A stretch of DNA of 64,000 bases from Coriobacteriia bacterium. Lineage in GTDB: Bacteria > Actinomycetota > Coriobacteriia > Anaerosomatales > PHET01. Below the pieces are notes generated by a model. That model was not told the DNA's origin. It made no database searches and was given only the letters and a program-made list of their open reading frames with translations. The stretch spans positions 62,001 through 126,000 of the forward strand of contig JAXMKZ010000059.1 of the NCBI GenBank assembly GCA_034370385.1, in the 5' to 3' direction. Shown in pieces: positions 6,184 through 32,970 of the stretch. Made by a program: the position numbers and the translations under genes. Position 1 is the first letter of the stretch. Each line of letters starts with the position of its first letter.

Positions 6184-6861
6184 TCAGTCCCGACGCGCCA
6201 GACCGAAGTAGTACACCAGGTTCAGAAGTGAGATGAGGGCGGCCGCGACGTAGGTCAGGGCGGCCGCATTGAGAACCTGGCGAGCACCGGAGATCTGATC
6301 GGGCGAGACCATCCCGATCGTCTCGAGGTTCGCAATGGCCCGCTTGGACGCATCGAACTCAACGGGGAGCGTCACGAGCTGGAACAGGACCGCGAACGAG
6401 TAGGCGATGATCCCGAGCCACAGAAGACCCGTGATGCTCGTGAACAGCCCCAACAAGATGAGTATGCCCGCCGACGAGGAGCCGAAGTTCACCACCGGCA
6501 CGAGGGATGTGCGCACCTTGCCCCACACGTATCCCTGCTCATCCTGAATGGCATGTCCTGCCTCGTGCGCCGCCACGCCCGCAGCGGCCACGCTCGGCTG
6601 AGCGTAGACCGCCTCAGAGAGCGCAAGCTTCTTGGACCGCGGATCATAGTGGTCGGTCAGCTCTCCGGGCACCGCAACGATCTCAACGCCGGACAGACCG
6701 GATGAGTTGAGTATCGCGCGGGCGACGTCGGCTCCGGAGCGACCGGTCGAAAGAGGTACATGACTCCACTTGCGAAACGTCGACTTGATGTAAGCCTGAG
6801 TCGCGAAACCCAGTCCAACGGACACGACCATGATCAACAGGTAGGTGGGGTCGAGAAACAT
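6184..6861 (-). CDS. Membrane zinc metallopeptidase (YugP-like)
   Basis: 225 residues. A first membrane segment at about 6-24 is followed by a soluble part with HEAGHAIQD at 99-107, the zinc-binding and catalytic HExxH motif. Three further hydrophobic segments lie in the C-terminal half. This matches the neutral zinc metallopeptidase family (YugP/Peptidase_M-like), predicted to face the membrane. Substrates are unknown. The gene stands alone between xseA and rnd. Confidence 0.88.
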   Translation of the reverse strand: MFLDPTYLLIMVVSVGLGFATQAYIKSTFRKWSHVPLSTGRSGADVARAILNSSGLSGVEIVAVPGELTDHYDPRSKKLALSEAVYAQPSVAAAGVAAHEAGHAIQDEQGYVWGKVRTSLVPVVNFGSSSAGILILLGLFTSITGLLWLGIIAYSFAVLFQLVTLPVEFDASKRAIANLETIGMVSPDQISGARQVLNAAALTYVAAALISLLNLVYYFGLARRD

Positions 6862-18915: not shown

Positions 18916-20016
18916 TCACAGCGCTGCAAGAACGCGGTCACAGATGGCGCGCGTCGCCCCGGGTCGACCGAGGGCTGCGGCGGCGGCGGCGACCTGCGCG
19001 AGTCGCGGTGGGTGGGACGCAAGATAGCGACACTTCTCCACGACGTCATCCTCGTCACGCGCCAGCAGCACCGCTCCCCAGTTGACGAGAAAATCGGCGT
19101 TGAACAGTTCCCTCGCCGGTAGGGGATTATAAAGGACGATCGGCAGTCCGCATGCGAGGGCCTCACCGACACGTGGAGAGCCTGCCGGGGCGACGAGCGC
19201 GTCTGCGGCACTCAGGGCACTACCGTATCGACGGGTCTCGCTCACGACGGCCACCGAGCCCGTTTCTGCGGCCGCAGCATCGAGCCTGCGCCGCACGCGC
19301 GGCTCTCCGGCGGCCAATGCGGCGACTTGGATGCCCGACGCCGCCAGCTCCGATACCACGTCACGGCTTGCGTTGAGAATCCCGGTTCCGGCGACCGCGA
19401 CGGTGAAACGGTCGGCAAACCCGAGTTCCGTCGCACACGCCGCTCGCGAAGCGCGGCCGATCACTCGATCGTGTACCGGGGTCCCGGCCACGACGATCCG
19501 GTCGTAGGGGAACCCACGGACGACCAGATCGTCGCGCGCTTCACCCGTCGGAACGAAGAGCAGGTCAACCTTCGGGTGCAAGATCAGGTGATGGGCCGAG
19601 TAGTCCGAGATCACTGCAGCCACCAGTGCATCGACACTCGGCCGCGATTCAGCGAACGCGGCCGTCGCGATGGGGCAGGTCGAGACGACCGCGCGCGCAC
19701 CCGTCTGTGCCCACTGCAAAGCGGCAGCCGGAATCCCCCGCCGCCGCGTCTCCTCGATCAGAGCGCCGTCCTGCGGTGCATCGGCCAGGCTACCCGCGAA
19801 CCCCGGAAAGAACTCCGGTGTCTGCTGGTAGGCGAAGCGCGCCAGGACACCCAGATTCGGCATCTCCCGATCAAGGAAATCGAGGGTGTCCACGCGCACG
19901 TCACCGGCACCGGACTTGAGGCCCGCGGCAAGCGCCTCGGCGATCGCCTGAGAGGGGCCACCGTAGGATGAATGGGTGACCAACACGCGCCGGGATGAAT
20001 CGCGTCGTCTTGGCAT
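18916..20016 (-). CDS. MurG/MGDG-synthase-like glycosyltransferase
   Basis: 366 residues with a GT-B fold. The N-terminal MGDG_synth-like domain opens RVLVTHSSYGGPSQAIAEAL and contains LDFLDREMPN. The C-terminal donor-binding half has VAGTPVHDRVIG, DALVAPAGSPRVGEALACGLP and IVLYNPLPARE. Relatives transfer sugars to diacylglycerol or to lipid-linked muropeptides at the membrane face. The ATG at 20016 overlaps the stop of the STAS-HATPase gene by one base (TGATG), so it is translationally coupled to a signalling operon. Acceptor lipid not predictable. Confidence 0.8.
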   Translation of the reverse strand: MPRRRDSSRRVLVTHSSYGGPSQAIAEALAAGLKSGAGDVRVDTLDFLDREMPNLGVLARFAYQQTPEFFPGFAGSLADAPQDGALIEETRRRGIPAAALQWAQTGARAVVSTCPIATAAFAESRPSVDALVAAVISDYSAHHLILHPKVDLLFVPTGEARDDLVVRGFPYDRIVVAGTPVHDRVIGRASRAACATELGFADRFTVAVAGTGILNASRDVVSELAASGIQVAALAAGEPRVRRRLDAAAAETGSVAVVSETRRYGSALSAADALVAPAGSPRVGEALACGLPIVLYNPLPARELFNADFLVNWGAVLLARDEDDVVEKCRYLASHPPRLAQVAAAAAALGRPGATRAICDRVLAAL

Positions 20017-20801
20017 CAGCTGACACCGGCGCGATGCTTCGTCAAGCGCACCAGGGTGCCACCCGACGGCGCTTCACCGTACTCGACTCTGTCCATCAGC
20101 GCCCGCATGAACATGACCCCGCGTCCTCCGGGGGCATACAGATCGTCGCTGTCCTTAGGGGCGCCGTTGAACCCCGGTCCGTTGTCCGTGACCTCGAAGA
20201 CGACCCGGTCGCCAAAGGCGACCACCCTCACGCGCACAGCGGCCTTTCCGCTCGTCGGTGCGCCGTGGCGAATGGCGTTGGCGAGCGCCTCACCCAAGGC
20301 GACCTTGACATCGAACAGTGCCGCCTCAGGCAATCCCAAAGATCGGAGCGAGTCGGCGATCACCGAGCGTGAAGCCGAGAGATGGTCGACGTCGGCCTCG
20401 ATGTCGAACTCCTGCTCCCAGAGTGGTTCGGAGTCCGGCTCACCCAGTTCCAGGCCCTCGAGAGCTTCTGCAAGCGAGGATGATGTGGAGATGCTCGAAG
20501 CGACAGCCGCAAGCCCCGACAGCTCAAGGATGCGAGACACGTCCCGATTGGCTCCCGCCAGTACCAATCTGCCGCCGGCCGGTCGAAGACGATGATCCAG
20601 CCACACGAGCAGTCCCAAGGCGGTGCTGTCGGCATAGTCGACTTCGGACAGGTCCAAGACCAGATTCGCGCACCCGCCCTCAAGTACACCGACGAGTTCA
20701 CGGCGAAGCTCCGGCACGACAGCGATATCAAGATCGCCGCTGAGCCGAACGACGCATGCCCTCGGTCCTAGTTCGTGGGTTAGTTCATGATTGGAGGTCA
20801 T
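20016..20801 (-). CDS. STAS-HATPase fusion: anti-anti-sigma and anti-sigma-kinase domains in one protein
   Basis: 261 residues. Residues 1-110 form a STAS domain with the phosphorylatable Ser in YADSTALG (S59). Residues 130-261 form an RsbW/SpoIIAB-like GHKL kinase with N-box GEALANAIRHG (E171, N175), TDNGPGF (206-211) and GGRGVMFMR (225-233). In Bacillus these are separate partners that switch a sigma factor; here both are in one chain. The gene lies 12 bases after a SpoIIE-type phosphatase that could dephosphorylate S59, and no sigma factor of that kind is adjacent. The output is therefore unclear. Confidence 0.9.
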   Translation of the reverse strand: MTSNHELTHELGPRACVVRLSGDLDIAVVPELRRELVGVLEGGCANLVLDLSEVDYADSTALGLLVWLDHRLRPAGGRLVLAGANRDVSRILELSGLAAVASSISTSSSLAEALEGLELGEPDSEPLWEQEFDIEADVDHLSASRSVIADSLRSLGLPEAALFDVKVALGEALANAIRHGAPTSGKAAVRVRVVAFGDRVVFEVTDNGPGFNGAPKDSDDLYAPGGRGVMFMRALMDRVEYGEAPSGGTLVRLTKHRAGVS

Positions 20802-20813
20802 GGGGCTGTCGGG

Positions 20814-23800
20814 TCACTCCTTCTTGTCGGCGTCGCCGAGCACGCTGCACACCTCGACGGCAAGTATGGCGATGTCGTCGCGCAACTCGCCGCTCACGAA
20901 ATCCTGTACCGCCGCGAGCAGTCGGGAGGCCAGTTCCTCTACCGTGGCGCCGCCGACCATGGCTGCGGTCACGCGCTCCTCTCCGAAGAACGTATTCCCT
21001 TGTCGGGCCTCGGTGACTCCATCGGTGTAGAGCAGGAGCCGATCCCCTGCGACGAAATCGACCTCGTTCTCATCGAACTCAACCTCAGCTATCGCGCCCA
21101 ACAGCGGACCTGTGGGGCCCAGCATGTCCAAGGACCCATCCGCCCGCTGAAGTATCGCCGCCGGGTGCCCTCCGTCCGCCCACGACAGACGCCCGCCCAC
21201 CACGTCGTACCTCCCGACCCACAACGTCACGATCTGACTCGGGTCACCGGACTGCGCTGTCATGCGGTTGACCTCAGTGGTGACGCTTCCGGGCATCAGT
21301 CCCGCCGCGACGAATGCCCTGACCGCGTACTTGATCATCGAGGTCTTCGTCGCGGCCTCAACGCCCTTGCCGCACACGTCGGCGATAGCCAACCAGATCG
21401 CCCCATCGGACGCCCTGAACAGGTCGTAGTAGTCGCCGCCGATATCGGTATCCAGACCCGCAGGCTCGTAGACGCTCGAGGTCGTGACCTCAGGGAAATC
21501 GGGCAGCGCCTTGGGGAGGATCGACTGCTGCAGCACGTGCGCCACCTCATGTTCGCGGCTGTACATGCGCGCTGTGTCGATCGCCAAAGCCGCCTGGGAA
21601 GCGAACGTCTGCATGATGCTCATGTCCTCGTCGCTGAACGCCCCGGCAGCCTCTGCCAGCACCATGAGCACGCCGATCGAGCGGCCACGCGCCAGCAGCG
21701 GCACAGCGAGCAACGAATTGAGCCCCTGCGACGCCGCGCTGCCGGCCACACCCCCCATTCCAAGCGAGAGGCTCGGCAGTGAGACAGGGGTCCGCGATGC
21801 GAACACACGCCCGGGCAGATCCTGTCCGGGCTCGAGCTCCAGCGCAACGATATGCGCGGGGACAACACCACGTACCATCGCGGTTCCGAGCGTGCGTCGC
21901 CTGCTGTCGTACGACCAGAGCATGACCGCTTCCGCCGAGAGGATCTTCTGAACGACCTCGATGACGCGGTTGAGCACGACGTTCACCTGGAGTTCCGACG
22001 CCACGTCCTGGCTGATGCGGAAGATGGTCTCGAGATTGGCCGCTCGGGCAAGCGCACGTTCGTAGAAGTAGGCATTCTCGAGCGCCAGTGCGACTTCGTC
22101 TGACAGGGCGCGGGCGATGTCCATGCTGCCCGTGTCGGCGCCTTCGGTCATGAATACCGCCAACGCGGCTCCATGGTCGCTCTCGAAATCGATCGGAACG
22201 AGCATGAGCAGCTCGCCATCATGATCGTCGAGGGCCCTGTCGGTTGCGAAGTCCTCTCCTCGCTTGACGATGACCGTGGCGCCATCCGGCTGGAGATGGA
22301 GCTGCGCGATCGCCACCAAGGAATCGTCCTCGCCCGCGTTGGTCGACGGAGCCAGCCCGAGGACGGCACGGTCCACGATCACGATCCGTGCCGCGCTCGC
22401 ACCGAACAGGTCGGAGATGATCTCTTCCACGATGCCGAGCGACGCAGCCAACGTCGCGGGTCGCACAAGCTCCTCTGCAACCGCACGCAGCGCCTCGGCA
22501 ACGTGCCTCGACTCGCTCTCGATCTCGAACAGGCGTGACGTCTGGACGGCGACCGCCGCCTGAGCGGAGAAGGTCCGCACCATCTCGATCTCGGCCTCAG
22601 TGACTTCGTCTTCCGAGTCGCGGAGCATGACCACGAGTCCGAGTGCCTCATGACCGGCCACGAGCGGCGCCGCCAGCGCCGAGCGGGCCGAGCTGGCCAG
22701 ACCGGGAAGCTCGTTGGCAAGCTGTCCGGGGTTTGCGGAGTACGTCACGGGACCCGTGCTGCCCAGAGCCTCAACAAGCCAGCCCCCCGTCGATGTGTCG
22801 ACGGTACTCACGCTCGACATGCCGATGCCGCGCGCGCGAACGGGAACCAATCGGGCACGCTCGTGATCCAGCAGGTAGACCGCTGACGCGCCCGGCCCGA
22901 CGATGTGACCCATCGCCGATAGAATGCCGTCCAGAACCTGGTCGAGCCGGGACGCACTTGCCAGCAACTGGGAGAGATCGTGCAGTGCATTGAGACGCAG
23001 CGTGACCTGATTGAACGCCTGGGCCACTCGACCGATCTCATCATCGGTCTCCGAGATCGGCAGCGGTTTGACGTACGCGCCGGATGCGGCGGCCCGCGCC
23101 ACCCGCTCGAGATCCTTGAGCGGCTTGACCAGTTGTCGAGTCACGTTCCAGGCGAGCGCCACGCCCACGAGCCCGCCGAAGACAAGAACCATGAAGAACG
23201 GGGCCACCGTCATGAACGAGGCTCGGGTGTCCGCCGCCGCCGGCTCAGCTGCAGCCACTCGCCAGTCGATTCCGGTAGCTCCGCGGATGTCACTGTAGAA
23301 GCCCGAGTACCGCTCACCGCTCGCAACAGCGAACGTCACGCGGCCGATGCCATTACCTGCCGGCTCCCAACGAGCGCCTTCCAGCCGGGGCGCCGCGCGC
23401 TGCCCCGCGAACCCCGCCAGTTCACCCGAGTCGATCAGCACCATGAGGCGTCCTGGCTGATTGCGGACCGCGGCCGCCAGCGCGCGCTCGATGAAGTCGT
23501 CGTTGAGCCGTGCGAGCACGACGACCGGCGAACCCCACGCAGTCGCCGTCGTCCTGGTGACCCAGATGGCGTGCTCGCCATCTTCCGTCTTGAAGCTCGC
23601 GAAGCCCGTGGATCCCCTGATGGCATCCTTGTACGCCCTGAGGGCGCGAACCTGTCTTGACGACAGACGATCGGGAGAGCCTGCGAGGCTTCGCGCGGTT
23701 CCAGCCTCCACCACCATCATGCGATCGAACATGCCGCCGCCACCTGCCGGCAGCGAAGCGACGGACGAGACCAGCTCCATCTCGGTCTTCGATGCGGCAG

Positions 23801-24035
23801 CGGTCGCGCTCGTGCGCTCGATGACCTCGTCGGCGGCAAACAGGCGCTCGTTGATGGCGTCCTCGACAAGCTGTACTGCCACCAGATCGCGGGCGTCGGC
23901 CCGCTCCGAGGCGAGATTCGACGTGGTGATCATGGCCACCACCGCAGCGGCGAACACCGTCGCGATGCCGACGGTCAGGGTGGCGCGAACGACTCTCGCC
24001 GAAAGCCCTTGTGAAGCGCGCGGACGTCTGACCAT
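20814..24035 (-). CDS. Transmembrane sensor with three GAF domains and a SpoIIE/PP2C phosphatase
   Basis: 1073 residues. In order: membrane segment (about 14-37), extracytoplasmic sensor region (about 40-265), second membrane segment, HAMP (LVKPLKDLERVARAA, about 296-350), three GAF-like domains (about 355-515, 525-690, 695-835) and a PP2C phosphatase. The phosphatase shows DIGGDYYDLF, IADVCGKGVEAA and LLYTDGVTEARQ, which carry its metal ligands. It should dephosphorylate a STAS Ser in response to outside and cytosolic signals, most obviously the product of the next gene. GAGGGAG precedes the ATG at 24035. The GAF ligands are unknown. Confidence 0.92.
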   Translation of the reverse strand: MVRRPRASQGLSARVVRATLTVGIATVFAAAVVAMITTSNLASERADARDLVAVQLVEDAINERLFAADEVIERTSATAAASKTEMELVSSVASLPAGGGGMFDRMMVVEAGTARSLAGSPDRLSSRQVRALRAYKDAIRGSTGFASFKTEDGEHAIWVTRTTATAWGSPVVVLARLNDDFIERALAAAVRNQPGRLMVLIDSGELAGFAGQRAAPRLEGARWEPAGNGIGRVTFAVASGERYSGFYSDIRGATGIDWRVAAAEPAAADTRASFMTVAPFFMVLVFGGLVGVALAWNVTRQLVKPLKDLERVARAAASGAYVKPLPISETDDEIGRVAQAFNQVTLRLNALHDLSQLLASASRLDQVLDGILSAMGHIVGPGASAVYLLDHERARLVPVRARGIGMSSVSTVDTSTGGWLVEALGSTGPVTYSANPGQLANELPGLASSARSALAAPLVAGHEALGLVVMLRDSEDEVTEAEIEMVRTFSAQAAVAVQTSRLFEIESESRHVAEALRAVAEELVRPATLAASLGIVEEIISDLFGASAARIVIVDRAVLGLAPSTNAGEDDSLVAIAQLHLQPDGATVIVKRGEDFATDRALDDHDGELLMLVPIDFESDHGAALAVFMTEGADTGSMDIARALSDEVALALENAYFYERALARAANLETIFRISQDVASELQVNVVLNRVIEVVQKILSAEAVMLWSYDSRRRTLGTAMVRGVVPAHIVALELEPGQDLPGRVFASRTPVSLPSLSLGMGGVAGSAASQGLNSLLAVPLLARGRSIGVLMVLAEAAGAFSDEDMSIMQTFASQAALAIDTARMYSREHEVAHVLQQSILPKALPDFPEVTTSSVYEPAGLDTDIGGDYYDLFRASDGAIWLAIADVCGKGVEAATKTSMIKYAVRAFVAAGLMPGSVTTEVNRMTAQSGDPSQIVTLWVGRYDVVGGRLSWADGGHPAAILQRADGSLDMLGPTGPLLGAIAEVEFDENEVDFVAGDRLLLYTDGVTEARQGNTFFGEERVTAAMVGGATVEELASRLLAAVQDFVSGELRDDIAILAVEVCSVLGDADKKE

Positions 24036-24122: not shown

Positions 24123-24866
24123 TCATTCGTTGAGCGTCGGCAGATCGAACTCAATGGCCGGGATGGACTGCGTCAACCACGCCGCCACAGCTCCGAACTG
24201 ACCGGTGACTATCAGCAGGCCAATCACGATGAGCAGACTCCCGGCGATGCGATTCATCACCAACGAGTGCCGGTTCAGCCACTTCAGAAGCCCCGTCATG
24301 CGCCCGAACAGCAGTGCGACCGCTATGAACGGCAGACCGAGTCCCATCGAGTACGCCAGCAGAAGCAGCGCGCCCGAAGCGACACTCGCCGACGAGCCCG
24401 CCATCGTGAGTATGGTGCCCAGAATGGGTCCGACACACGGCGTCCAGCCCGCCGCAAACGCAGCACCCATGACGAACGCGGCACCGCGCCCGAAGGAGCG
24501 GGAGCGCCCGAGGTCCATGCGGGCTTCGCTATAGAGCCACGGAACCTTGATGATGCCGAGCATCAACACGCCGAACGCGATGACAGCGGCTCCCGCGACC
24601 ATCTCGATGATCTCCCGATACTCCGTCAGGAACTGACCCAGCACCGACGCCGTCGCGCCCATCGACACGAAGACGGTGGAGAAGCCCAGCACGAACAGCA
24701 CCGCTGGCACCACGACCTTGATGCGAGACGCTCCACCCGAGAGCTCGGCGCTCGTCAACCCGGTCATGAACGAAAGGTAGGCGGGAATCAGCGGGAGCAC
24801 GCAAGGTGAGAGAAACGACAACACGCCGGCGAGAAACGCCACGCCAAGAGCAACTACCTCAGACAC
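24123..24866 (-). CDS. ccdA: CcdA/DsbD-type thiol-disulfide membrane transporter
   Basis: 247 residues with six membrane segments. It carries the paired conserved cysteines of the family, in LSFLSPCVLPLIPAYL near the N-terminus and GWTPCVGPILG in the middle. CcdA passes electrons from cytosolic thioredoxin to thiols outside the membrane, for example for cytochrome c maturation. The start is a GTG at 24866. Its promoter carries a CsoR-type palindrome shared with thioredoxin, so the electron donor and the transporter would be co-regulated. Family firm; regulation inferred. Confidence 0.93.
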   Translation of the reverse strand: MSEVVALGVAFLAGVLSFLSPCVLPLIPAYLSFMTGLTSAELSGGASRIKVVVPAVLFVLGFSTVFVSMGATASVLGQFLTEYREIIEMVAGAAVIAFGVLMLGIIKVPWLYSEARMDLGRSRSFGRGAAFVMGAAFAAGWTPCVGPILGTILTMAGSSASVASGALLLLAYSMGLGLPFIAVALLFGRMTGLLKWLNRHSLVMNRIAGSLLIVIGLLIVTGQFGAVAAWLTQSIPAIEFDLPTLNE

Positions 24867-24927: not shown

Positions 24928-24957
24928 ACTATACCCTATGGGGTATACGTTGTGCAA
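24928..24957 (-). promoter_or_regulatory. ccdA promoter with CsoR-type operator
   Basis: On the minus strand, TTGCAC (24952-24957), a 17-base spacer and GTATAG (24929-24934) form a -35/-10 pair. The palindrome ATACCCTATGGGGTAT, within 24930-24947 when its flanking T and A are included, fills the spacer and the -10. A repressor bound there would block RNA polymerase. The half-sites match the other two operators at 31897 and 32944. Confidence 0.75.
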
Positions 24958-25011: not shown

Positions 25012-25230
25012 CTACAACTGAGCCGCCTCGTAGCCGACCACGCGGATGGCGGCGATGATCTCGTCGATGGTGACCCGATCGTCGTCGTAGGACACGAGGG
25101 TCGTCCCGTCGACATGGTCCGTCTTGCTCGACTCGACCCCCGGCACGTCAGCAAGAGTCATGTCGATCAGCATCGAACACGAACCGCAGTGCATCCCTGA
25201 AGTGCTCAGCGTGACCGTCTTCGAAGCCAT
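25012..25230 (-). CDS. Heavy-metal-associated (HMA) metallochaperone, CopZ-like
   Basis: 72 residues forming one HMA domain with the metal motif GMHCGSC (C15, C18). The family binds Cu(I) or similar soft metals and hands them to P-type ATPases or regulators. It lies four bases after the zinc-ribbon gene and before ccdA. No copper ATPase is in the window, so its partner is elsewhere, or it may serve the CsoR-family regulator. Its transcription would start at the sigma-54 promoter at 25512. Confidence 0.9.
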   Translation of the reverse strand: MASKTVTLSTSGMHCGSCSMLIDMTLADVPGVESSKTDHVDGTTLVSYDDDRVTIDEIIAAIRVVGYEAAQL

Positions 25231-25234
25231 ACGT

Positions 25235-25465
25235 TCACTCGCCCCCCTTGATCGGCCCTGTCAGAAGGCTGCCGTTGGACCCGTCAGCCCTCTCCGTCGT
25301 CTGGAGCGCTCCGCAGTGAGGGCAGAGCCGCCAATCGGTCCTGACCGGACCGTCGCACTGGGGGCACGTCAACCCGACGCCCGGAGTCACTGCCGAACCG
25401 TCGCGCCCAGAGAGCCCGAAGATTCGATCCAAGACACTTGTGACGAAGGCGGGCGGTGTCTGCAT
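25235..25465 (-). CDS. Small double-CxxC zinc-ribbon protein
   Basis: 76 residues. A hydrophobic/amphipathic N-terminus (FVTSVLDRIFGL) is followed by one zinc ribbon with CPQC at 34-37 and CPHC at 48-51, then a polar Gly/Ser tail. I chose the ATG at 25465; a TTG two codons earlier is possible. It is the first gene after a perfect sigma-54 promoter and lies four bases ahead of the HMA chaperone, so a metal- or redox-related role is plausible. I do not know a function for this family. Confidence 0.75.
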   Translation of the reverse strand: MQTPPAFVTSVLDRIFGLSGRDGSAVTPGVGLTCPQCDGPVRTDWRLCPHCGALQTTERADGSNGSLLTGPIKGGE

Positions 25466-25495
25466 GGACAAGGGACTCTCAGACGAAGGTGAACT

Positions 25496-25518
25496 GCTTG
25501 CACTACGTCAGTGCAAGC
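25496..25518. repeat. 23-base palindrome overlapping the -12 element
   Basis: Perfect nine-base arms GCTTGCACT/AGTGCAAGC separated by ACGTC. It covers the -12 box and expected start site of the sigma-54 promoter, 31 bases ahead of the zinc-ribbon gene. It could be a repressor operator, a hairpin in the 5' end of the transcript, or a weak terminator of the upstream regulator gene; no T-run follows. Confidence 0.8.
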
Positions 25519-25527
25519 GATGTGCCA
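25512..25527 (-). promoter_or_regulatory. Perfect sigma-54 (-24/-12) promoter
   Basis: On the minus strand the sequence is TGGCAC-ATCGC-TTGCA, an exact match to the TGGCAC-N5-TTGCW consensus with GG and GC ten bases apart. It lies just past the stop of the NtrC-type activator gene. The start site would be near 25501, giving a leader of about 36 bases to the zinc-ribbon gene. Confidence 0.85.
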
Positions 25528-25543: not shown

Positions 25544-26893
25544 CTACAACCCGAGACGTTGCATGCGGGCTTCAAGCGTCTTGGTCGTGAGTCCCAGAAG
25601 CTTCGCGGACTTGGGCAGGTTCGAACCGGTGCGGTCGAGTGCCTGACGAACGAGGTCGAGTTCAACCTCTTCAAGGTTCGTCCCGTCTTCCGGCAGTACG
25701 AAACCGCAGCTCGCCCGCCCCGCACTGACGACACCGGAACGGACCTCTGCAGGCAGGTCGTCGACTCCTATCTCATCGCCGTGGGACAGGATGACCATGC
25801 GCTCGATCGTGTTCTCCAACTCGCGGATGTTTCCGGGCCACTGGTAAGAGGCGAGCGCCTGCATCGCCTCACCTGAGATCACCTTGCTACCCGCGTTCGA
25901 CTTCTCAAGAAAGTGCGCCACCAGAAGCGAGATGTCGCTTGAGCGCTGGCGCAGCGGGGGCAAGGTCACGGGGACGACGTTGAGGCGATAGAAGAGGTCC
26001 TCGCGGAATCCGCCATCGACGATCAACTGCTGCAGATCCTGGTTCGTAGCGGCGACGATACGTACGTCGACGTCGATGGAGCGCGTTCCGCCGAGCCGCT
26101 CGAAGCGTCGCTCCTGCAAGACGCGCAGGAGCTTGACCTGAGTCGCCGCCGAGATGTCGCCGATCTCGTCGAGGAAGATGGTCCCGGTGTTTGCCAACTC
26201 GAATCGCCCGGGCTTGCCTGTCATGGCGCCGGTGAACGCGCCCTTCTCGTAACCGAAGAGCTCGCTCTCCAGCAGCGTCTCGGGCAACGCGCCGGCAGAC
26301 ACGGACACGAACGGCTTCGTGGCTCGCTCCGAAAGATTGTGGAGGGCGCGTGCGATAAGCTCCTTGCCCGTGCCCGACTCACCGTAGATCATGACGGTCG
26401 CGCTCGTCGGAGCCACTTTGTGCACGGTCTCAAGGACCTCAAGCATGCGCTGATCCGACGCTACGATTCCTTGAACATCGTACTCACGCCCGATCTCTTC
26501 GCGAAGGCGTTCGACCTCAGCGGCAAGGTCCCGGTACATGAGCGCTTTGCTGATGGCGAGCTTGAGCTCCTCCAGGTCGAAGGGCTTGGTGAGATACTCG
26601 TTCGCTCCGGCCTTCATGGCATCAACCGCCTGCTCGACGTTGCCGTGTGCCGTGAGCATGATTATGGGGAACGAGACGCCTTTGCCCCTGAGGCGGCGCA
26701 GAACCTCCATCCCGTCCGGAGCAGGCATGCGATGGTCGAGGACCATGAGGTCAGGCTCGAAGTCGGCAGCGGCCGCAAGCGCCTCCTTGCCGTCAGACGC
26801 CTCGGCGACTTCGAACCCCTCAGCGGTGAGTGCCTGCCCGAGCACCCACCGCATATTCTTCTCGTCGTCGACTATCAGGATTCTCTTCTGCAT
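25544..26893 (-). CDS. NtrC-family sigma-54-dependent response regulator
   Basis: 449 residues. The receiver domain has phosphoacceptor D53 in [11 protein letters not shown]. The AAA+ domain has Walker A GESGTGKE (171-178) and the sigma-54-contacting GAFTGA loop (218-223). A C-terminal Fis-type helix-turn-helix ([22 protein letters not shown]) completes it. It should open sigma-54 promoters when phosphorylated by the kinase encoded next to it. I set the start at the ATG at 26893 (GGGGAG upstream); a longer frame to 26983 overlaps the kinase and is not used. First target candidate: the promoter 17 bases beyond its stop. Confidence 0.95.
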
Positions 26894-26906: not shown

Positions 26907-28430
26907 CTATTCCTTGAATACCGCAGGCATCGAGACCGTGAAGGTCGTGCCCCGCTCCGACGATTCGACTTCGATATGACCATCGTGCTCGTCGATGATG
27001 CGATGGACGATCGTCAATCCCAGTCCGGTACCGTCCGCCCGCTTCGTGAAGAAGGGGTCGAACACCTTCGTGATGTCCTCATCGGCGATTCCCGGTCCCG
27101 TGTCCGCCACCGTGACCACCACGTAATCTCCGTCGGACTCCGCGAAGATGCCGATGTTGCCGCCTTCTTCATCCATAGCCTGTACCGCGTTGGTCACGAG
27201 GTTCAAGAAGACCTGCTTGAGCTGATCCGGATCACCATAGACGGGTGGCAGCCCCTCAGGCCGCGCGTACGATATATGGACGCTGGCCTGCTTGGCGAAG
27301 CGGCTCGTGAAGAGCACGACGTCCTCGAGCACCCCGGCGAGGTCGGTATCCACCAGTGTAGGCTTGCTTGGCCTACCAAAATCGAGCAGCGCCTTGATGA
27401 CCCTGTCCAGCCGGTCGATCTCCTGCTTGATCACCCCGGCTGCGACGTGGATGCGCTCCTTATCACACTGGGCATCCTCGAGCAGCTGCACACTTGCCCG
27501 GATCACCCCCAGCGGGTTGCGTACCTCGTGAGCCACACCCGCAGTGAGCTCGCCCATCGCGGCAAGACGGTCTGCTCGAATCAGCTGATCGGTCAACGTA
27601 CGGATGTCGGAGACATCTTCGAGGGTGACGACCGCCCCGAGAATCGATCCCCCGACGGCCCTCATGCGCGAGGTTGACACCTGAGCATGGACGACTCGCC
27701 CGATCGGCGTGACGAACGTCGCCTCACGATGAGCCATGGGCACGCGCCCGGACAGCACCTTGGCTACGTCACTTGCAATCCCTCCGTCTTCACGGAAGAG
27801 AATCTCGATCGGCCGGGGAACCATCTGGGTCTCCGTCATGCCAAGCATCCGCTCCGCGGCGGGATTGGCCGTGGCGATAGAGCCATCGGGCCCCACGGTA
27901 AGCACTCCCGAAGTGATCGAGCGCAAGATCGAAGCGGTGTAATCCTGCACGTTGATGAGCTGGATGGCGCGCTCTTCGAGCTTCTTGTACGCCTCCTCCA
28001 ACTGCGATGAGACCTGCTGCAGGTCACTGGAGCGGCGCACCTCTATGTCGCGCAATGCGCCGAACAGCAGACCGAGCGCGACGAACGAGATCATCTCAAG
28101 CCAGGTGTCGAATCGACTCACTGACCCACCGAGCATCAGGGACACGTGCGCCCCGTACAGAACGGCTGAGATGACCCCGGTGATCAGCCCGCCCCGTCTT
28201 CCGAACACCCAGGCCGCGTAGATGATCGGAACGAAGTACAGGCGACGGTAGAGCATGTGAAGCGGGAGGCTCCTCGCCGGAGTGAACATGTGCAGAAGCG
28301 TCACGAAGACGATCATCACGCTGATGGCGACAATCGCTCGTCCGGCCCGCCGACGCTCTTCGTGGTCGATGTCGCGCTGCGGTCCCGATTCCCGACCTGC
28401 GCCGGCCAAACCGCTTTTCTGCGGCGTCAT
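26907..28430 (-). CDS. Membrane PAS-domain sensor histidine kinase (NtrB-like)
   Basis: 507 residues. Three or four membrane segments at about 30-125 have little extracytoplasmic sequence. They are followed by a linker coiled coil, a PAS domain (about 155-265), HisKA with the phosphorylated His in AGVAHEVRNPLG (about 293), and an HATPase (NLVTNAVQAMDEEG, VADTGPGI, GTGLGLTIVHRI). The signal is probably sensed within the membrane or by PAS. The ATG at 28430 overlaps the rpoN stop by four bases, and the response regulator follows 13 bases later, giving a three-gene operon. Confidence 0.94.
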   Translation of the reverse strand: MTPQKSGLAGAGRESGPQRDIDHEERRRAGRAIVAISVMIVFVTLLHMFTPARSLPLHMLYRRLYFVPIIYAAWVFGRRGGLITGVISAVLYGAHVSLMLGGSVSRFDTWLEMISFVALGLLFGALRDIEVRRSSDLQQVSSQLEEAYKKLEERAIQLINVQDYTASILRSITSGVLTVGPDGSIATANPAAERMLGMTETQMVPRPIEILFREDGGIASDVAKVLSGRVPMAHREATFVTPIGRVVHAQVSTSRMRAVGGSILGAVVTLEDVSDIRTLTDQLIRADRLAAMGELTAGVAHEVRNPLGVIRASVQLLEDAQCDKERIHVAAGVIKQEIDRLDRVIKALLDFGRPSKPTLVDTDLAGVLEDVVLFTSRFAKQASVHISYARPEGLPPVYGDPDQLKQVFLNLVTNAVQAMDEEGGNIGIFAESDGDYVVVTVADTGPGIADEDITKVFDPFFTKRADGTGLGLTIVHRIIDEHDGHIEVESSERGTTFTVSMPAVFKE

Positions 28431-29821
28431 CGACGGCGCCTGGCCCAGCTCGGCTCGATGCTGAGTTCCTCGCGGTACTTGGCGACGGTGCGACGGGCGA
28501 CCGTCACGCCCTCATCGGAAAGCAGCTCCGCAAGCTTCTGGTCAGACAGCGGCTTGGCGGGATCCTCCTCCTTGACCAACTCGCGTAGACGGCTCTTCAC
28601 GGTCGTCGCCGCCACGTCCATCCCACTCGACGTCCGATAGCCACCGCTGAAGAAGTGCTTGAGTTCGTAGAGCCCATACGGCGTGGCCATGTACTTGCCT
28701 GTGACTCCGCGAGAGACGGTGGATAGATGGACGCCGATCTCAACGGCGACGTCCTCCAGACGCAGGGGCCGCAGCGGTCCCTTGCCGTCTTCGAAGAAGT
28801 CGCGCTGCACCTCCATGATGATCTCGGTGATACGGCTGACCGTGTCCTTACGCCGGTCCACATTCCGGATGAAACTCTCAGCCGAGCGGATCTTGTCCTT
28901 GAGGTAGCGCCGCGTCTCGTCGTCGGCGTTCGATCCGCTCTTGAGCATCGCCCGGTATCGCGGCGAGACCCGCAGAGTGGGCAGCGCTTCGTTGTTCGGG
29001 ATGATGAGCCACTCATCGTCGAAGCGCCGAAGCGTGACGTCAGGCACGATGTAGCCGGGCGATGGGCCCGGCGAGAACGCGCCGGCCGGCCGGGGGTTGA
29101 GAACCTTGAGAACTTCGACCAGCCTGCGTACCTCATCCTCGTCCACGTGGAGCGCGCGCGCGATCTTGCGGAAGTGATTCGACGCGACATCGTCGAGATG
29201 ATTCCTGACGATGGTCATCATGAGCGGCTCATCTATGCCGAGGAACTCCAGCTGCAGGCAGAGCGCCTCGCTGAGATCCCGAGCTCCGACGCCGGGAGGA
29301 TCGAGCTGCTGCACGGCACGCAACCCGGCCTCCGCTACGGTCGATGAGACTCCGACCAACGCCGCGATCTCGTCGAGCGAGCCGGTGAAGAAGCCGTCCC
29401 CATCAAGGGAGCCGACCACGGCCATCGCCGCATGTTCGACATCCTCATCCACATCGAGCAGCGCGACCTGATCGAGCAGGTAGTCGTCAAAACTCTGAAT
29501 GCCGCCGACGTAGTCCTCGGTGTTGGTCTGCTCGGCGTTGGGATCGCGCGGCGCCGTGGCGCCGAGCTGGTCGAGGTCCTCATACATCTCGAGCCACTCG
29601 TCCCAGGAGCGCTCGTCGTCGCGCGCGTCTTCAGGCTGATCCTCGCCCTCTACCGGCTCGGATTCTGTCTCGTCGACCTCGAGCACCGGATTCTCGAGCA
29701 TCTCCACTTCGACCATCTGCTGAAGCTCGGCGACGGGCATGGCGAGGATACTCAGCCCTTGGTAGACCTGGGGCGAGAGGGTGACCTTCTGTCGCAAGTC
29801 AGGACGCTGCGAGAGTTCCAC
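28427..29821 (-). CDS. rpoN: RNA polymerase sigma-54 factor
   Basis: 464 residues with all regions. The N-terminal activator-response segment (MELSQRPDLRQKVTLSPQ...LENP) is followed by an acidic linker (about 50-90), the core-binding domain, a helix-turn-helix, and an RpoN box ARRTVAKYRE (442-451) that reads -24 promoters. The start is a GTG at 29821 with AAGGGGG upstream. The gene leads an operon with a kinase and an NtrC-type activator. Sigma-54 is rare in Actinobacteria, so its presence is notable if the lineage call holds. Confidence 0.96.
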   Translation of the reverse strand: MELSQRPDLRQKVTLSPQVYQGLSILAMPVAELQQMVEVEMLENPVLEVDETESEPVEGEDQPEDARDDERSWDEWLEMYEDLDQLGATAPRDPNAEQTNTEDYVGGIQSFDDYLLDQVALLDVDEDVEHAAMAVVGSLDGDGFFTGSLDEIAALVGVSSTVAEAGLRAVQQLDPPGVGARDLSEALCLQLEFLGIDEPLMMTIVRNHLDDVASNHFRKIARALHVDEDEVRRLVEVLKVLNPRPAGAFSPGPSPGYIVPDVTLRRFDDEWLIIPNNEALPTLRVSPRYRAMLKSGSNADDETRRYLKDKIRSAESFIRNVDRRKDTVSRITEIIMEVQRDFFEDGKGPLRPLRLEDVAVEIGVHLSTVSRGVTGKYMATPYGLYELKHFFSGGYRTSSGMDVAATTVKSRLRELVKEEDPAKPLSDQKLAELLSDEGVTVARRTVAKYREELSIEPSWARRRR

Positions 29822-29968: not shown

Positions 29969-30934
29969 TCAGTCCGGTGGCGGCAGTATGGGCGCGGGAT
30001 CACGCTCAGGCAGCTGCACGATGGCGATCGCCGCGAGAACCAGCAGACCACCCAGCAGCTGTGCAGCCGTCAAGGACTCACCGAAGAGCACGAACGCGCC
30101 GATACCGGCAAGCGCCGGCTCCACGGTGGAGGTCACCGTCGCGTTGGTGGGAGGGATGTACTTGAGCGCCATGAGGAACGCCGAAAACGGCACCACGGTG
30201 CTCACTACCGCAAGAAAGACGACCGCGGCCAAGGATTCGGGCACCGCTAAGAGCTGAATCGTCGACTCGGGGCCCAGCACGAGCAACCAGAACAGCGAGG
30301 CGAACCCAAGGCCGTACACGAGCGTCGTGTAGGGCGTGAACCGCTTGGCGGCGACACTGCCCATGAGCGAGTAGGCGGCGAAGAAGACGGCTGAGGCCAG
30401 CCCCCATGCAACTCCGGCCGGTGACACCACCAGGCCCTCTCCTCCGATCGCGCCGACAACGAGCGCGCATCCCGTCACCGACAGCGCCACTCCCGCCGGC
30501 AGCGACCACGTCCATCGATGCTTCATGAACACCACGCCCACGATAAGGACGAGGACCGGCGCAAGGTACTCCAGAAGGATGGCTGTGGCCACGTTCGTGA
30601 GCGAGATGGTCTTGAAGTAGGTGTAGTGGACCGCCGCCAGACCGACAACGCCGAAGACGGCCAGGAACGGAAGGTCCTTCGGCCTCACAACGAGCGCCTC
30701 GCGCCTGAAAACAAGCAGGTACGCGAGCAGGATCACGCATGCCGCGAACGCCCGCCCGGCGGAGAGTGCCGTCGGGTCGATCGTGATCCCCAGCGGGGGA
30801 ACGGGCCACGCGGCGGTCTCGGCGGTCGCCTCGGTGAACAGCCACTTCGCCGTGAGACCGCCGCTGGCCCAGCACGCCGCGGCAAGTAGGACCAACCCGT
30901 AGCCGCGCATGCGGACGGCCCGCGCCTCAGCCAC
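29969..30934 (-). CDS. EamA-family (DMT) transporter
   Basis: 321 residues with ten membrane segments arranged as two EamA repeats; the second repeat has the family-typical ending ATVTSTVEPALAGIGAFVLFGE. Members export or import amino acids, sugars or other metabolites, and the substrate cannot be read here. A GTG at 30934 overlaps the CDF gene stop by eight bases. An ATG at 30910, which starts right at the first membrane segment, is equally plausible. Confidence 0.88.
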   Translation of the reverse strand: MAEARAVRMRGYGLVLLAAACWASGGLTAKWLFTEATAETAAWPVPPLGITIDPTALSAGRAFAACVILLAYLLVFRREALVVRPKDLPFLAVFGVVGLAAVHYTYFKTISLTNVATAILLEYLAPVLVLIVGVVFMKHRWTWSLPAGVALSVTGCALVVGAIGGEGLVVSPAGVAWGLASAVFFAAYSLMGSVAAKRFTPYTTLVYGLGFASLFWLLVLGPESTIQLLAVPESLAAVVFLAVVSTVVPFSAFLMALKYIPPTNATVTSTVEPALAGIGAFVLFGESLTAAQLLGGLLVLAAIAIVQLPERDPAPILPPPD

Positions 30935-31871
30935 GGGCGGAGGTCTGTTCGCGCTCGGTCTTGGTGGCCTGATACTCGTCGTAGGGTTCGAGGTGCGCTA
31001 TGACGTCAACGACCTGGGGAAACGCGGCGCCGATCGCGCGTTCGACGTTCTCGGCGATCTCATGACCATCGGCCACGCTGCGCGTCTCGTCGACCTGAAC
31101 ATGGAGGTCGACGTAGACAGCGGACTCCGACCCCCTCGTGCGGATGTGGTGGCATCCAAGCACTCCCGCAACGGCAAGAACGCACGCGCATATCTCATCG
31201 GTGGATATGCGCGCGGAGTCTGACAACGTGGCACTGGCCTGGCGAAAGACCGCGACGGCCGTATACACGATCATGGCCGATACCAGCAGCGCGACGACCG
31301 GGTCGGCTTGAGGGAAGCCGGCTTTGACCATCACGAGTGAGAGGATGACCCCCAGGCTCACGAAGATGTCAGAGCGGGTATGACTGGCGTCGGCGATCAG
31401 GATCTCGGAGCCGAGCTCCCGCCCTACCCGGCGCTCCCACGTGCTCACGCCGATGTTGACCGCCAGAGTAGCGATCATGACAGCGAACGAGACCGCATCG
31501 ACCTGGGGTGGGCTGACGGCCCCCGAAAGCTGCGACAGGGCGCTGGAGCCGATGCGGTATGCGGCGAACGCGAGCATGCCCGCGATGGCTGCCGAGGCGT
31601 ACGATTCGAACTTGTCATGCCCATAGGGATGGTCGCGGTCCGCCGGCCGGCCGGCGATGGCCATGCCCACGAGCCCGATGACGTTGCTGGCCCCGTCGAA
31701 CAGCGAGTGAAAGCCGTCGGCCTGCATGGCCGCCGACCCGGAAACCGTACCCCACCCGATCTTGGCGAGCGCGACGCCGACGTTCAAGGCGAGCACGGCC
31801 CACAGGACGGTCCGAATACGCTTGACACGCAGCGTCCCGGCCTCGCTGTCCGATGGTCTCGTGTATCCCAC
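30927..31871 (-). CDS. Cation diffusion facilitator (CDF) metal exporter
   Basis: 314 residues with six membrane segments. Metal-site motifs are ADGFHSLFDG in segment II and DASHTRSD in segment V, followed by a cytosolic ferredoxin-like ZT domain (VYVDLHVQVDETRSVADGHEIAENVE). CDF proteins use the proton gradient to export Zn, Fe, Mn or Co. I chose the GTG at 31871, with GGGGAGG nine bases upstream; the longer frame would start inside the operator. Divergent from the CsoR-family repressor, with a shared palindromic operator between them, which suggests metal-responsive control. Confidence 0.9.
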   Translation of the reverse strand: MGYTRPSDSEAGTLRVKRIRTVLWAVLALNVGVALAKIGWGTVSGSAAMQADGFHSLFDGASNVIGLVGMAIAGRPADRDHPYGHDKFESYASAAIAGMLAFAAYRIGSSALSQLSGAVSPPQVDAVSFAVMIATLAVNIGVSTWERRVGRELGSEILIADASHTRSDIFVSLGVILSLVMVKAGFPQADPVVALLVSAMIVYTAVAVFRQASATLSDSARISTDEICACVLAVAGVLGCHHIRTRGSESAVYVDLHVQVDETRSVADGHEIAENVERAIGAAFPQVVDVIAHLEPYDEYQATKTEREQTSARG

Positions 31872-31887
31872 CTGGTCGTTCCTCCCC

Positions 31888-31916
31888 TTGTGCCACATAC
31901 CCCTAGGGGGTATCAT
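31888..31916 (+). promoter_or_regulatory. csoR-like promoter with operator shared with the CDF gene
   Basis: TTGTGC (31888-31893), a 17-base spacer and TATCAT (31911-31916) form a promoter for the repressor gene. The palindrome ATACCCC-TAG-GGGGTAT (31897-31913) fills the spacer. On the minus strand TTGAAC and GTATGT, also 17 bases apart, could serve the CDF gene, so one operator would control both. Confidence 0.78.
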
Positions 31917-31960
31917 CGTTCAAGAACAACCCATTCAAGGTATCAGAAGCGGAGACTGTG

Positions 31961-32263
31961 ATGACTGACTCACCGGAAACCACCGTCATCTCCGATGAGG
32001 AGCAACGCAAGGCCATGGTGAACCGGCTGAAGCGCCTGGAGGGACAGATTCGCGGCCTTCAGACGATGATCGAGTCCGGTCAGGAATGCGACGCGATTCT
32101 CACACAGGTCATGGCTGCAAAATCCGCGCTCAACCAAGTGGGACTGCACATCATCGGGCACGCCATGAAGAACTGCCTCATCGACGAAGAAGCCGCCACG
32201 CGCGAGGAGCTCATCGACGAGGCGATCAAGGTGTTCCTCAAGTACTCATCCTGTGTGAAGTAG
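31961..32263 (+). CDS. CsoR/CstR-family (DUF156) metal- or thiol-sensing repressor
   Basis: 100 residues, all helical, with the family core VNRLKRLEGQIRGLQTMIE. The sensing cysteines are C43 and C72, 29 residues apart as in CsoR and CstR. By gapless comparison with Mycobacterium CsoR, the copper-binding His position (68 here) is Ala, and a His sits one residue earlier (H67). Sensing could thus be of copper with altered geometry, of another metal, or of persulfide as in CstR. I chose the ATG at 31961 (GGAG seven bases upstream). It lies just downstream of its likely operator. Confidence 0.9.
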   Translation: MTDSPETTVISDEEQRKAMVNRLKRLEGQIRGLQTMIESGQECDAILTQVMAAKSALNQVGLHIIGHAMKNCLIDEEAATREELIDEAIKVFLKYSSCVK

Positions 32264-32940: not shown

Positions 32941-32970
32941 CCTTTATACCCCATGGGGTATCCCGTGGTC
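32941..32970 (-). promoter_or_regulatory. trxA promoter with CsoR-type operator
   Basis: Minus strand: TTGACC (32965-32970), a 17-18-base spacer, then GTATAA/TATAAA (32941-32947), a near-consensus sigma-70 promoter. The perfect palindrome ATACCCC-AT-GGGGTAT (32944-32959) covers the spacer and -10. It also lies 69 bases ahead of the divergent ferrochelatase-like gene and could affect both. Confidence 0.82.

Follow-up and report, generated by a model that had tools for sequence, protein, structure and literature searches.

A probable order-wide sigma-54 circuit with protein and small RNA outputs in the Anaerosomatales

Described sigma-54 circuits and the Actinomycetota

Several bacterial systems place small RNAs under the control of NtrC-type regulators and sigma-54. 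In Vibrio, LuxO, a regulator of this type, acts with sigma-54 to drive several paralogous small RNAs, the Qrr RNAs (PMC3352281, PMC10162802). Pxr of Myxococcus is a structured small RNA with paralogs, and its sigma-54 promoter is located behind the gene of the NtrC-type regulator nla19 (PMC5568312). In E. coli, the two-component system QseE-QseF (GlrKR) governs the sigma-54-driven, envelope-linked small RNA GlmY (PMC6075780). Among mycobacteria, the 6C/B11 RNA carries C-rich loops that pair with ribosome-binding sites (PMC10470900). Sigma-54 operating with a single activator has been described in Chlamydia and Borrelia (PMC3162934). The same survey, from 2011, recorded the Actinomycetota as having no sigma-54 system, and a further publication likewise considers functional sigma-54 absent from this phylum (PMC12316311).

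The window, that is, the whole 64-kb stretch of DNA analysed here (G000:C59:62001-126000), comes from a host of the order Anaerosomatales, class Coriobacteriia. This order, formerly OPB41, includes cultivated anaerobes rich in multihaem cytochromes, with 17-18 in each of two cultivated isolates, and its description makes no mention of sigma-54 (PMC9686372). RpoN exceeded the cut-off in 18 of 396 genomes sampled across the phylum, so the preliminary description of the locus was correct in calling sigma-54 rare in Actinobacteria. Within the Anaerosomatales, rpoN is present in 66 of 69 genomes and its neighbourhood is kept. In other RpoN-bearing families of the phylum (L292, L294, L295, L297), rpoN adjoins a related kinase with 40-48% identity; the pairing may therefore predate the order.

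The rpoN cluster and its conserved promoter element

The cluster and its surroundings comprise the following features, in window coordinates:

24123..24866, minus strand: CcdA/DsbD-type membrane protein (Pfam DsbD_TM)
24932..24945, no strand assigned: CsoR-type operator TACCCTATGGGGTA, upstream of ccdA
25012..25230, minus strand: HMA (CopZ/MerP-like) metallochaperone, 72 aa, second operon gene (Pfam HMA, E 5.8e-13)
25235..25471, minus strand: zinc-ribbon protein, 78 aa, double CxxC, first gene after the promoter (Pfam Zn_ribbon_3)
25497..25517, no strand assigned: 8-bp inverted repeat CTTGCACT-ACGTC-AGTGCAAG, overlapping the -12 element
25512..25527, minus strand: predicted sigma-54 -24/-12 promoter TGGCAC-ATCGC-TTGCA, conserved in 57 of 61 relatives
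25544..26893, minus strand: NtrC-type response regulator (receiver, AAA+ with GAFTGA, Fis HTH)
26907..28430, minus strand: AtoS-like sensor kinase (about four membrane helices read from the sequence, PAS, HisKA, HATPase)
28427..29821, minus strand: rpoN, sigma-54 (AID, CBD and DBD domains; RpoN box ARRTVAKYRE)
29969..30934, minus strand: EamA transporter (domain match), a neighbour kept in relatives
30927..31916, minus strand: CDF cation-efflux transporter (domain match), a neighbour kept in relatives
31898..31912, no strand assigned: CsoR-type operator TACCCCTAGGGGGTA, between the CsoR-family and CDF genes
31958..32263, plus strand: CsoR-family repressor, Ala at the copper-ligand His position

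The rpoN, kinase and activator genes are all complete. The rpoN product surpasses the cut-offs for PF00309, PF04963 and PF04552 and scores 405 bits against 277 for TIGR02395, and its ARRTVAKYRE box is conserved across 66 sequences. The activator contains PF00072, PF00158 and PF02954, the composition of a response-regulator-type bacterial enhancer-binding protein, with GAFTGA conserved in 61 sequences. It is the only strong PF00158 protein of the host genome, the three further matches being weak. Across the 69 genomes of the order, strong PF00158 activators number one in 54, two in 11 and none in four; three of these last four are less than 90% complete, and all four are in at least 300 contigs. 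The contiguity of sigma factor, kinase, activator and target noted in the preliminary description was thus confirmed, with an activator that is the genome's only strong one. The membrane region of the kinase contains no conserved Cys, His or Met (metal ligands) among relatives, and the proposal that it is a metal sensor was rejected on this ground.

The element TGGCACATCGCTTGCA, the minus-strand sequence at 25527-25512, is the sole zero-mismatch match in the window; with up to two mismatches allowed, 13 others were found, all with two. Exact TGGCACN5TTGCW occurs at three sites in the 2.69-Mb genome, this one included, and one of the other two stands before a conserved small RNA. Since a single exact 16-mer is little proof, significance rests on conservation. 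The pattern TGGCAY-N5-TTGCR is found 8-74 nt past the end of the activator gene in 57 of the 61 order genomes with readable sequence, against a chance expectation of about 7e-5 per genome for the 100 nt behind that gene. The earlier description had read the exact consensus as a genuine promoter and had named lack of conservation in relatives as grounds for abandoning it; the reading survives this comparison. Its placement of the element just past the activator stop also holds, although the gap, counted from the stop codon's end at 25544, is 16 bases rather than 17. Taken together, these data identify the element as a predicted, conserved sigma-54 promoter.

A purine follows the -24 hexamer at each of the 131 sites, activator-adjacent and RNA classes taken together, in agreement with the textbook consensus TGGCACG-N4-TTGCW. 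Of the hallmarks of a sigma-54 promoter, GG at -24, GC at -12 and fixed spacing were found at 57 of 61 activator-adjacent and 74 of 74 RNA sites; the expected +1 about 12 nt past the -12 fits the RNA 5' ends described below. TTGCA-type matches number 0-5 per genome in the order. A search for a common activator-binding palindrome detected no shared 5-bp dyad within 320 bp upstream of 140 promoters, a result that leaves room for imperfect sites.

Order-wide, the genes run CsoR-family gene, CDF, EamA, rpoN, kinase, regulator, promoter, zinc ribbon, HMA and CcdA, with some losses and insertions. The zinc-ribbon gene has a TTG start at 25471 and an in-frame ATG at 25465, and ends 4 bp from the HMA gene. 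Its relatives encode proteins of 105-136 aa (about 115) with two hydrophobic membrane helices and a CxxC...WRxCPxCG ribbon that is invariant or almost so in 30 sequences; an AlphaFold2 model from these sequences, of moderate confidence (pLDDT 75, pTM 0.34), places helices at 6-34 and 42-60 beside a small beta ribbon. The host's copy has neither helix. Short helix-less forms are also found in L067, L068 and L070, from the order's family f16, by the look of it through independent loss. The HMA protein has the domain and a CxxC, yet scores below the NCBIfam CopZ cut-offs (47 of 91 and 45 of 95 bits).

At L054, L091, L093, L094 and L095, about 1.2-1.4 kb separate the zinc-ribbon gene, which stays 15-44 nt behind the promoter, from the HMA gene further on, and in G040 promoter and zinc-ribbon gene have moved jointly, 2.4 kb away. 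Because the HMA gene is displaced while promoter and zinc-ribbon gene stay paired, the constant target is the zinc-ribbon gene; the metal chaperone of the first proposal is not the invariant output. Neither promoter nor zinc-ribbon gene is present at the locus in G029 and G030, and in G053 the promoter that would follow the activator gene has been lost. Both G053 and G030 have rpoN and an activator, with no such promoter behind the activator and no detected copy of the RNA described below.

Three CsoR-type palindromes (TACCC...GGGTA) flank the cluster, the third at 32947-32960. The operator between the CsoR-family and CDF genes is kept in 57 of 59 relatives, and that before ccdA in 24 of 50. 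The rpoN gene, two genes downstream of the CDF-side operator, is preceded by a 66-254 nt gap with no CsoR-type box. In place of the Cys-His-Cys ligands of copper-sensing CsoR, the repressor shows Cys-Ser/Ala-Cys in each of the 59 tallied relatives, and the host version is Cys-Ala-Cys. Persulfide sensors likewise have no copper-ligand His. Since the CsoR family includes persulfide-sensing members (PMC10318464), a sulfur signal is at least as plausible as copper. With its own CsoR-type operator, ccdA is only possibly part of the sigma-54 transcript. The CDF gene, ccdA and the thioredoxin region seem to form a small CsoR/CstR regulon whose members are interleaved with the sigma-54 locus. At L150 and L160, the gene for a 67-aa ferredoxin-like protein has upstream of it a -24/-12 match that immediately adjoins a CsoR-type palindrome. 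What looks like a partner-switching module lies next to ccdA (20016-24035); it consists of a STAS/ATPase fusion protein and a SpoIIE-type phosphatase that contains GAF-like repeats.

A small RNA pair and further candidate targets

Outside the cluster, 82 site occurrences were examined, comprising exact TTGCA-type matches in the order and two TTGCT-type sites of the host genome. By a home-made gene caller, 74 of them lay outside called genes, a few being contig fragments of the same locus. The idea of a single-promoter regulon, suggested by the few TTGCA-type matches, was rejected because the other matches are mostly intergenic and recurrent. Twelve of the 74 intergenic sites, G000:C51:154717 included, precede a sequence of about 95 nt that runs convergently with pstB and has a terminator and two hairpins whose loops are rich in C. 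Twelve copies, at loci first found through promoter matches, served to build a covariance model, R1; most of the 74 RNA loci considered below came from the RNA search itself. R1 recovered the RNA in 66 of 69 order genomes, in two copies in 48 and one in 18; the 179 genomes searched from the rest of the class gave no hit, under stricter filters that could miss weak copies. Copy A adjoins pstB, and copy B is mostly upstream of a WYL-type regulator gene. The host genome carries both:

G000:C51:154603-154703 (L111): RNA copy A, promoter site present
G000:C5:236947-237042 (L244): RNA copy B, promoter site present

The promoter precedes all 74 distinct RNA loci examined (65 with no mismatch, nine with one) and none of 1287 control windows. 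It ends 11-14 nt ahead of the RNA 5' end in 72 of the 74 loci, a spacing that fits sigma-54 transcription starts and from which the predicted +1 of the zinc-ribbon promoter falls at about 25501. Compensatory changes occur at 15 of 20 base pairs, and 97% of cells are paired compared with 30-57% in slid controls, in an alignment fitted to the model.

The loops read like CUCCUCCCCCC and are complementary to strong ribosome-binding sites; they probably base-pair with G-rich sites of this kind, which would repress translation. Two hairpins with C runs in both loops correspond to the 6C design. None of the 69 genomes reaches the gathering score of Rfam 6C (RF01066), the best being 39 against 47 bits; identity with 6C was rejected for this reason, and the RNA is called 6C-like. 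The pair is previously undescribed. Among 55 window genes, two have a 9-nt loop match in the ribosome-binding region, the CDF gene and a membrane protein gene at 6184-6861, a number too small for a judgement on targets. In the CDF gene (30927-31916), the called ribosome-binding region GGGGAGGAA matches loop 1 of copy B over these 9 nt, possibly as feedback or by chance.

The neighbours of the two copies deserve mention. In many genomes copy B has as its neighbour a gene for a WYL-domain (PafBC-like) regulator; work cited in PMC6789036 connects 6C RNA with DNA damage in Corynebacterium. Copy A and pstB converge in many genomes, and transcription reading through would be antisense to the pst operon.

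Further intergenic sites of the host genome, with 0-1 mismatch to TGGCAY-N5-TTGCW, precede the genes of CcmE, of a multihaem cytochrome and of a small membrane protein rich in Cys and Met. The last of these is followed by a gene for a DsbD_2-cupredoxin fusion, and this operon lies behind the promoter in about eight relatives. The called start of the small protein is only 12 nt from the site in the host genome, compared with about 41-75 nt in relatives, which makes the candidate weaker in the host. In some relatives hemA, a radical SAM protein and cytochromes are behind the promoter. Five genomes were covered when other lineages were last searched. In G371, an RpoN-bearing member of another actinobacterial family, sites precede CcmE and a TPR membrane protein, and rpoN is beside a related kinase. 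These candidates, each represented by few sites, fit a role of the circuit in envelope copper, thiol and cytochrome maturation.

The proposed circuit and its relation to described systems

Comparison across genomes points to an order-wide sigma-54 circuit, very probably consisting of kinase, NtrC-type regulator, RpoN and both protein and RNA outputs; promoters, conservation, spacing, RNA structure and a single activator all speak for it. The circuit itself is strongly supported, and we infer its signal and the RNA targets. According to this model, the membrane-bound PAS kinase would respond to a signal, probably one arising at the membrane or from redox/envelope chemistry, by phosphorylating the adjacent NtrC-type regulator. 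This regulator, usually the sole sigma-54 activator, would then remodel RpoN-polymerase at a few near-perfect TGGCAYR-N4-TTGCW promoters, whose dependence on RpoN is predicted. Three outputs would follow: the membrane zinc-ribbon gene next to the regulator, in most cases together with that of the HMA chaperone; the two unlinked paralogous RNAs of about 95 nt, with C-rich loops that probably pair with G-rich ribosome-binding sites and repress translation; and, probably, envelope copper, thiol and cytochrome-maturation genes. The system had been called self-contained, a description too narrow for the two unlinked small RNAs that share the promoter and for the probable envelope regulon.

Other explanations have to be weighed against this model. 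That the element is a by-product of an overlapping inverted repeat or of GC-rich sequence, with no promoter at all, is scarcely credible: the 8-bp repeat does overlap the -12 box in the host genome, but it was not found in relatives, which keep the -24/-12 element, the chance expectation is minute, and the same element stands at fixed spacing from RNA 5' ends. The repeat is probably incidental and, being unconserved, was rejected as an operator or terminator. It is also very unlikely that the promoters are genuine and a second, unlinked activator drives the RNAs; the 11 of 69 genomes with a second PF00158 protein would allow it, whereas nearly all of the 54 genomes with one activator, the host included, carry the RNAs. 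A local metal-response circuit with the zinc-ribbon/HMA operon as its only target draws on the HMA gene adjoining the promoter, on the CDF transporter and CsoR-family genes nearby, and on the adjacent site being one of only one or two genomic TTGCA-type matches in many relatives. We consider it improbable, given the same promoter before two unlinked RNAs in most genomes, an HMA adjacency that is inconstant where the zinc ribbon is constant, and a sensor region without conserved metal ligands.

A closer contender accepts the same circuit and assigns it to the maturation of cytochrome c and to thiol/sulfur redox in the envelope, with copper secondary and a kinase that senses quinone, haem or redox state. 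The sites before CcmE and the multihaem cytochrome in the host, those before CcmE and the TPR membrane protein in G371, the hemA, radical SAM and cytochrome genes of relatives, CcdA and the DsbD_2-cupredoxin protein, the repressor without its copper-ligand His and the many cytochromes of the cultivated isolates (PMC9686372) are all consistent with this role. Most of these sites occur in few genomes, however, and the cupredoxin and HMA domains point to copper, so that this assignment is quite possible while falling somewhat short of probable.

As for the history of the circuit, we lean slightly towards the view that sigma-54, whether retained or acquired by the Anaerosomatales, was reduced there to a single activator and a few near-consensus promoters, with a 6C-type anti-ribosome-binding-site RNA pair as the main output. 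If true, a sigma-54 post-transcriptional circuit exists in a phylum held to lack sigma-54, and it ties envelope metal and cytochrome maturation to broad translational repression. A whole actinobacterial order of about 65% GC has RpoN, activator and conserved promoters; sigma-54 specificity looks attainable there because the promoters are almost perfect consensus and TTGCA-type matches are so few. The circuit would add a sigma-54-driven small RNA family where none was expected, offer a minimal study system, in many cases with a single sigma-54, a single activator and a few promoters, and open a first way into gene regulation in an order that has members in culture.

Among described systems, ZraSR (HydHG) and AtoSC resemble the cluster in pairing a kinase with a sigma-54 regulator, and AtoS/AtoC and ZraS/ZraR are among the best protein matches. 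The Zra system has a metal-related target. Unlike these systems, the Anaerosomatales cluster includes rpoN, its sensor has no conserved metal ligands and its scores are all under the equivalog cut-offs (for ZraR and ZraS, 378 of 760 bits for the regulator and 210 of 479 for the kinase). GlmY/QseE-QseF is likewise a two-component, sigma-54-driven small RNA system tied to the envelope, but the RNA differs and the regulator likeness is distant, below the GlrR cut-off. Actinobacterial 6C/B11 shares the two hairpins and C-rich loops, whereas the Anaerosomatales RNA remains under the Rfam gathering score; known 6C hosts have no RpoN, so a sigma-54 promoter would not be expected for 6C. Chlamydia and Borrelia also work with one activator, in different phyla, and contiguity with rpoN and an RNA output go unmentioned in PMC3162934. 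Pxr/nla19 offers both a sigma-54 promoter behind an NtrC-type regulator gene and a structured RNA with paralogs; in the Anaerosomatales, by comparison, the adjacent promoter would drive a protein operon and the RNAs are unlinked, one of them scoring 29 bits with the Rfam Pxr model against a cut-off of 80. Qrr/LuxO similarly places paralogous small RNAs under an NtrC-type regulator and sigma-54, in another phylum and with a different RNA sequence and fold; what sets the Anaerosomatales apart from it is that rpoN, kinase, regulator and protein target are contiguous and that the cell usually has no other activator.
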